Below, in pieces: positions 32,601 to 32,797 of a stretch of 35,214 bases of DNA. Under the pieces are notes generated by a model, which saw nothing but the letters and a program-made list of their open reading frames with translations, searched no databases and was not told the origin of the DNA. This DNA is from Armatimonadota bacterium (GTDB lineage Bacteria > Armatimonadota > Zipacnadia > Zipacnadales > VGFC01). Where the stretch lies: positions 1 to 35,214 of the forward strand of contig VGFC01000025.1 in assembly GCA_016869045.1 (NCBI GenBank), written 5' to 3'. Made by a program: the position numbers and the translations under genes. Positions within the stretch are counted from its first letter, which is position 1; every line of letters begins with the position of its first letter.

Positions 32601-32797
32601 TTGTACGTCCGCCCGCGCGCGTGATGCACGCCCATCGAGTCGTTCGCGGTGATCGGGCCATCGATGAAGGAGTGAATCGGCCCGTTCGCGTTCTTCTCGA
32701 CGAGCTTCCCAAAGGCGTCGCTCGCCTCCCACAGCTTGAGCATCTCAAGCTGCATCTGCCGGAAATCCGGCTCCTCCCTCACCGGCTCAAACAGCAT
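29663..32797 (-). CDS. ileS: Isoleucyl-tRNA synthetase with altered HIGH motif (GVHH)
   Basis: 1044 aa from ATG 32797 (SD CAGGAG 8 nt upstream; ORF-track start at 32806 is GTG). [58 protein letters not shown] in KMSKS position. Confidence 0.93.
   Translation of the reverse strand: [1044 protein letters not shown]

Follow-up and report, generated by a model that had tools for sequence, protein, structure and literature searches.

We found that the window, i.e. the whole stretch of 35,214 nucleotides analyzed here, carries an ileS gene whose product is most likely a working housekeeping isoleucyl-tRNA synthetase of type 2 (IleRS2) from a branch with the GXHH form of the HIGH motif, in which the histidine at the third motif position (His61) would replace the first one, and for which strong resistance to mupirocin is predicted. 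The motif present here, GVHH, is of a known type, and in this respect the window adds one more enzyme to the published GXHH IleRS2 type. What is new concerns the branch as a whole, where the class I ATP site has been rebuilt in a coordinated way and the swap in HIGH is one of several changes. Textbooks present HIGH and KMSKS as the signatures of class I synthetases, whose catalysis is explained through them. With most signature residues replaced in an enzyme that is the sole IleRS in several phyla, the branch is a natural test of which parts are needed. It also suggests that mupirocin hyper-resistance may be a common intrinsic trait among uncultured bacteria, and that the KMSKS loop becomes free to change after the swap in HIGH.

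The ileS gene and its altered signatures

The gene lies at positions 29663..32806 on the reverse strand, as do all features described below. Its reading frame scores 720 bits against the NCBIfam ileS model TIGR00392 (curated cut-off 621.4) and therefore represents a full IleRS. The product has 1047 aa from the listed GTG at 32806, from which residues are numbered here, or 1044 aa from an ATG at 32797. From the sequence, the latter appears the more likely start because the GTG overlaps an AGGAG box (32810-32806), which is separated from the ATG by a spacer of 8 nt. Three Pfam domains are present, tRNA-synt_1, Anticodon_1 and DUF5915, the last of which covers C-terminal residues 850-1041 (29684..30259; PF19302, 158.9 bits) and is taken as the IleRS2-type C-terminal domain. 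The TTTPW motif of the CP1 editing domain (residues 228-232, 32111..32125) and a second editing-domain motif (residues 316-331, 31814..31861) are intact.

The identified neighbours include pyrimidine-linked genes (carbamoyl-phosphate synthase, a carbamoyltransferase, and the iron-sulfur subunit of a B-type dihydroorotate dehydrogenase), along with an argininosuccinate lyase-like enzyme, a radical SAM protein, an aldehyde dehydrogenase-like frame, and sugar-active enzymes. No antibiotic cluster adjoins ileS, and these neighbours speak against a self-resistance gene beside such a cluster. RNA control of ileS, by a T-box or otherwise, was also considered, but the window has no Rfam match.

GVHH replaces the class I HXGH at residues 59-62 (32621..32632). 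The preliminary description had placed it at the HIGH position, and this is borne out by the codons GGC GTG CAT CAC, read from 32632 to 32621, and by a gap-free, residue-for-residue phmmer alignment with the HIGH region of Priestia megaterium IleRS2, which is HVGH in three chains and GVHH in an engineered mutant. A search of the whole protein found GXHH once and no HXGH that could be the true HIGH motif, so that GVHH is not misplaced. The same description had remarked in passing on an unusual KMSKS loop, which also holds: AMHKS stands at residues 593-597 (31016..31030), with the first Lys and the Ser replaced and the Met, second Lys and final Ser kept, and thus departs from the KMSKS signature. 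The altered loop in fact runs through the whole clade and is more novel than the swap in HIGH.

Further changes accompany these two. EMQEQ replaces EGxDQ/EAxDQ at residues 552-556 (31139..31153), the Asp being changed to Glu and the Gly/Ala to Met, and GPITAND replaces GPPxANG at residues 50-56 (32639..32659), through P52I and G56D. Residues 84-95 (32522..32557) include W89F and P95W, which differ from all other IleRSs compared, and a clade-specific Arg84.

A branch of IleRS2 with rewritten motifs

We aligned IleRSs from the window, related public genomes, genomes of the phylum, 111 genomes from the class to which a Gaiellaceae relative belongs, and plasmid records, and counted motifs in the 162 non-identical rows with all motifs readable. 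Since most sequences were chosen for their similarity to the window protein, the counts are not frequencies, although the combinations separate cleanly. The combination of HXG[HQT] with DQ (or DH) and both KMSKS lysines is seen in 32 of these rows, and GXHH with DQ and both lysines in 43. The window enzyme belongs to a set of 51 that have GXHH and lack DQ and the first lysine; both lysines are missing from three further GXHH rows and from 32 rows with [GAPL]XHT, and one row (Oscillospiraceae L029) combines GIHH and KFSKT with the absence of DQ. No HXGH enzyme without DQ/DH or without a KMSKS lysine was found in the 162 rows.

The residues P52, W89, P95, S524, D555, K593 and S595 are all present in the IleRSs of the first two motif groups (75/75) and are all replaced in the window enzyme and nearly all its branch, the exceptions being single sequences and six that keep Ser595. 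In published structures, the motifs at the mupirocin and adenylate site contain these seven positions or lie next to them. The third-position histidine is invariant in the 29 aligned relatives (29/29) and in every GXH[HT] row (130/130), which argues that GVHH did not arise by chance. Within the branch, Ala, Cys, Pro or Leu can take the place of Gly59, and Thr that of His62; His61 is the sole motif residue that never varies, as expected if it replaces the first histidine of HIGH.

A tree of 76 rows and 973 columns (LG+C20, with the three motif regions excluded, by a quick method without bootstrap) places the window enzyme in a 63-row IleRS2 group (SH-aLRT 99) together with Bacillota and Rhodococcus IleRS2, IleRS1 being separate. 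The type proposed from the window alone is thus supported by the phylogeny as well as by the C-terminal architecture. The window branch forms one 47-row group (SH-aLRT 100) that spans Armatimonadota, Actinomycetota, Chloroflexota, WOR-3, Parcubacteria/Gribaldobacteria, and Woesearchaeota, and its sister is an IleRS2 group of Bacillota HXGH enzymes and KMSKS-type GXHH enzymes. When the long row L029 is omitted, a single change on the tree accounts for the lost first lysine, and two changes each are needed for the third-position His and for the second lysine. The closest neighbour of the window enzyme comes from an unclassified bacterium, AUK107 (SH-aLRT 94). A single clade uniting the window enzyme with the 12 other Armatimonadota enzymes of its sub-branch, a group named after the first tree was seen, is rejected (p-AU 0.0006), and therefore the history of the gene is probably not simply that of the phylum.

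Two sequence motifs have been used to tell IleRS groups apart, NKIL after HIGH for IleRS1 and HYPFE for the eukaryotic/eukaryote-like group (PMC4861432). The former is absent from the window enzyme, as for IleRS2, and the HIGH position has the G/A-X-H-H that marks the non-canonical hyper-resistant IleRS2 of Brkic et al. (2023). HYPFE is also missing, LHHGVDD standing where P. megaterium IleRS2 has YHYPFEN, and the placement as IleRS2 therefore rests on the tree and the architecture, as an outlying branch. An AlphaFold model of the full-length protein (mean pLDDT 91.3) has its best fold matches in P. megaterium IleRS2 structures (TM 0.91; 8c8v with HVGH, 8c8w with engineered GVHH), and four P. 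megaterium chains are also the best matches by sequence among solved structures (about 35% identity). The P. megaterium enzyme differs, however, in having a canonical KMSKS and GIDQTRGW, and GVHH by engineering only. The plasmid enzymes MupA and MupB are of the same IleRS2 type, with about 33% identity to the window enzyme, which scores 603 and 579 bits against their NCBIfam models, far under the cut-off of 1900; MupA is moreover a plasmid gene that accompanies a chromosomal IleRS1.

G/AXHH has been found in many IleRS2 enzymes, including those of D. radiodurans (ALHH) and S. griseus (Brkic et al., 2023; PMC10485003), and the window enzyme likewise combines IleRS2 architecture with a swapped HIGH. 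The other GXHH IleRS2 group (Rhodococcus, Nonomuraea, Chloroflexi, and many Thermoleophilia) keeps KMSK and (A/G)xDQTRGW, unlike the window enzyme with its AMHKS and MQEQVRLW. The main text of Brkic et al. (PMC10485003) divides IleRS2 into a major clade, part of which is a GXHH subclade, and a minor clade (node 747) with a GXHH ancestor. The minor clade is probably an early branch with Planctomycetota and Chloroflexi sequences, and probably the same branch as that of the window enzyme. The same main text does not appear to mention a change in the KMSKS sequence for GXHH IleRS2, nor the KMSKS and GxDQ losses for the node 747 clade.

Nine Actinomycetota enzymes of the alignment, mostly from Thermoleophilia, have A/G/P-V-H-T for HIGH and EMHGS, EMHAS or EMHSS for KMSKS, so that neither KMSKS lysine nor the last histidine of HIGH is left. 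Such an enzyme is the single IleRS match per genome, for example in a Gaiellaceae genome assembled as one 2.6 Mb contig. The IleRS2 with GVHH and xMHKS, which we encountered mostly in bacteria, also occurs in DPANN-type archaea (11 sequences from Woesearchaeota and unnamed archaea), which suggests transfer between domains.

ileS in the genome and in the Armatimonadota

The genome from which the window derives (7.87 Mb, 95.4% complete, 4.35% contaminated) has a single IleRS above the cut-off, the remaining matches being a ValRS (HMGH, KMSKS) and a LeuRS-like frame. Upstream of the gene, we identified a promoter-like site by consensus match, TTGACG-17-TATACT (32874..32902), with 10 of 12 consensus positions (1 found vs 0.1 in shuffles). 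Both results agree with the proposal made from the window that this is the housekeeping ileS with its own promoter. No second ileS was found in this genome or in that of the sister species; given a genome 95% complete and 4% contaminated, one could be missing from the assembly.

The nearest relative in public genomes, an Armatimonadetes MAG (79% over the C-terminal half), is evidently this sister species of the same genus. Its ileS encodes the same enzyme type, with 81% identity over 456 codons and EMHKS for AMHKS, and the dN/dS of about 0.17 over these codons (simple Nei-Gojobori count) shows that the gene is under purifying selection. The sister gene runs off its contig, and its N-terminal half, which would encode the HIGH region, was not found in the sister assembly, and blastn detected no DNA common to the window and the sister contig outside ileS. 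IleRS1 was not found in either of these two genomes of the genus. The order presents a different picture: wherever HIGH could be read in the IleRSs of 29 of its genomes, the enzyme is an IleRS1 (HLGQ, K[ML]SK).

At the chosen threshold, IleRS2 is present in 25 of 291 Armatimonadota genomes, that of the window included, some of which also have IleRS1 and some not. Ten other Armatimonadota genomes with completeness of at least 90% and contamination of at most 5% have only the branch-type IleRS, and therefore the branch enzyme must support translation there.

Two further observations concern the distribution of IleRS in this phylum. HLGQ replaces HXGH throughout 25 IleRS1 sequences of the same order, and the change of the fourth-position His of HIGH to Gln is mentioned by Brkic et al. 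(2023; PMC10485003) for laboratory-selected mupirocin-resistant S. aureus. Both IleRS1-like and IleRS2-type genes occur in eight Armatimonadota genomes and probably in a ninth, and the coexistence of the two types in one genome has been described in the same paper for a small group of Bacillaceae.

Catalysis, mupirocin, and alternative readings

The preliminary description had pointed to a published link between the HIGH swap and mupirocin hyper-resistance, and rightly so: according to the main text of Brkic et al. (2023; PMC10485003), GXHH in IleRS2 confers up to 1000-fold more resistance, and the natural ALHH enzyme of D. radiodurans has a mupirocin Ki of 6.6 mM. GVHH engineered into two HVGH IleRS2s raised the Ki about 170- to 430-fold, reverting the swap in a natural enzyme lowered it about 820-fold, and the non-canonical motif costs a modest loss of activity beside these 170- to 820-fold differences. 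Like these G/AXHH enzymes, that of the window is predicted to be hyper-resistant. However, its ATP-pocket residues differ from those of the measured enzymes, and a Ki cannot therefore simply be carried over. We hold this prediction with moderate confidence, since the measured enzymes lie, by the text of that paper, outside the branch or were engineered from KMSKS-type IleRS2.

In the mechanism that we propose, His61 would take the transition-state role of the first histidine of HIGH, Gly59 would make room for it, the retained second KMSKS lysine (Lys596) would contact the phosphates, and the missing first lysine would be tolerated; the enzyme would charge isoleucine. The bulky third-position histidine would clash with mupirocin, so that both enzyme and host are predicted to be strongly resistant. 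The two KMSKS lysines of LeuRS have separate partners, the adenylate phosphate for the second and C75 of the tRNA for the first (PMC5059758), which fits the keeping of the second and the loss of the first in the window enzyme. As a guess, Arg84, a basic residue that is specific to the branch and found throughout it, could stand in for the lost lysine charge. Position 585 (the His582/Phe586 position of published structures) was rejected as a general lysine substitute, being Arg in the window enzyme and Lys, Glu, Thr or others in its relatives.

It is possible, if somewhat doubtful, that this is a working IleRS in which mupirocin did not select the swap, the ATP site of the branch having been remodelled early under other influences (other inhibitors, ATP economy, or drift with compensation), and that mupirocin resistance is incidental and maybe only moderate. 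The seven positions replaced together reach beyond the mupirocin-relevant third position of HIGH, the first lysine was lost in a single ancient step that maps to the root of the branch, and the gene adjoins no antibiotic cluster, all of which would suit such a history; but the published changes in Ki upon introducing the swap alone, or upon reverting it in a natural enzyme, are large. We consider it improbable that ileS is a MupA-like resistance copy gained by recent transfer and accompanied by a normal ileS missing from the assembly. The IleRS1 of the same-order genomes, the rejection of one clade for the window enzyme and the other Armatimonadota enzymes of its sub-branch, and the several Armatimonadota with both types point in that direction, but IleRS1 was found in neither genome of the genus, the MupA/MupB models score far below their cut-off, and the identified neighbours are pyrimidine-synthesis and carbohydrate genes rather than mobile or resistance genes.

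The alteration of both class I signatures might also indicate a degenerate or repurposed paralogue that no longer charges isoleucine. This is very improbable for a protein that is the sole IleRS in many genomes, keeps its editing motifs, has a confident full-length fold, and evolves with the low dN/dS given above. Lastly, the chance of a sequencing or assembly error or of a misaligned motif is negligible, as GVHH with MHKS is common to dozens of independent genomes, relatives that already refute an error, and the protein has no other HXGH.

Beyond the working GXHH housekeeping enzyme that we favour, the window enzyme may, in a more tentative reading, represent a third design of the IleRS active site, unusual among class I enzymes, in which the catalytic histidine moved from position 1 to position 3, the ATP/pyrophosphate duties of GxDQ and of the first lysine were given up or taken over by other residues, and one actinobacterial lineage lives on an enzyme without both lysines and the last histidine. 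If so, the GXHH enzymes measured so far could not serve to predict its chemistry or its response to drugs. Literature searches, in which Brkic et al. was considered by its main text, returned nothing on point for an IleRS without KMSKS, for a joint rewriting of the motifs, or for a sole IleRS without both lysines, a silence that is not proof of novelty. Single signature changes have precedents in TyrRS, where the human enzyme has KMSSS, with one KMSKS lysine missing, and the last HIGH position varies (HIAQ, HVAY; PMC7613620). In some Armatimonadota lineages the KMSKS loop drifts further, with AFSKT, RISKA, RISKT, PFSKS, and RISKK alongside GVHH in five enzymes.
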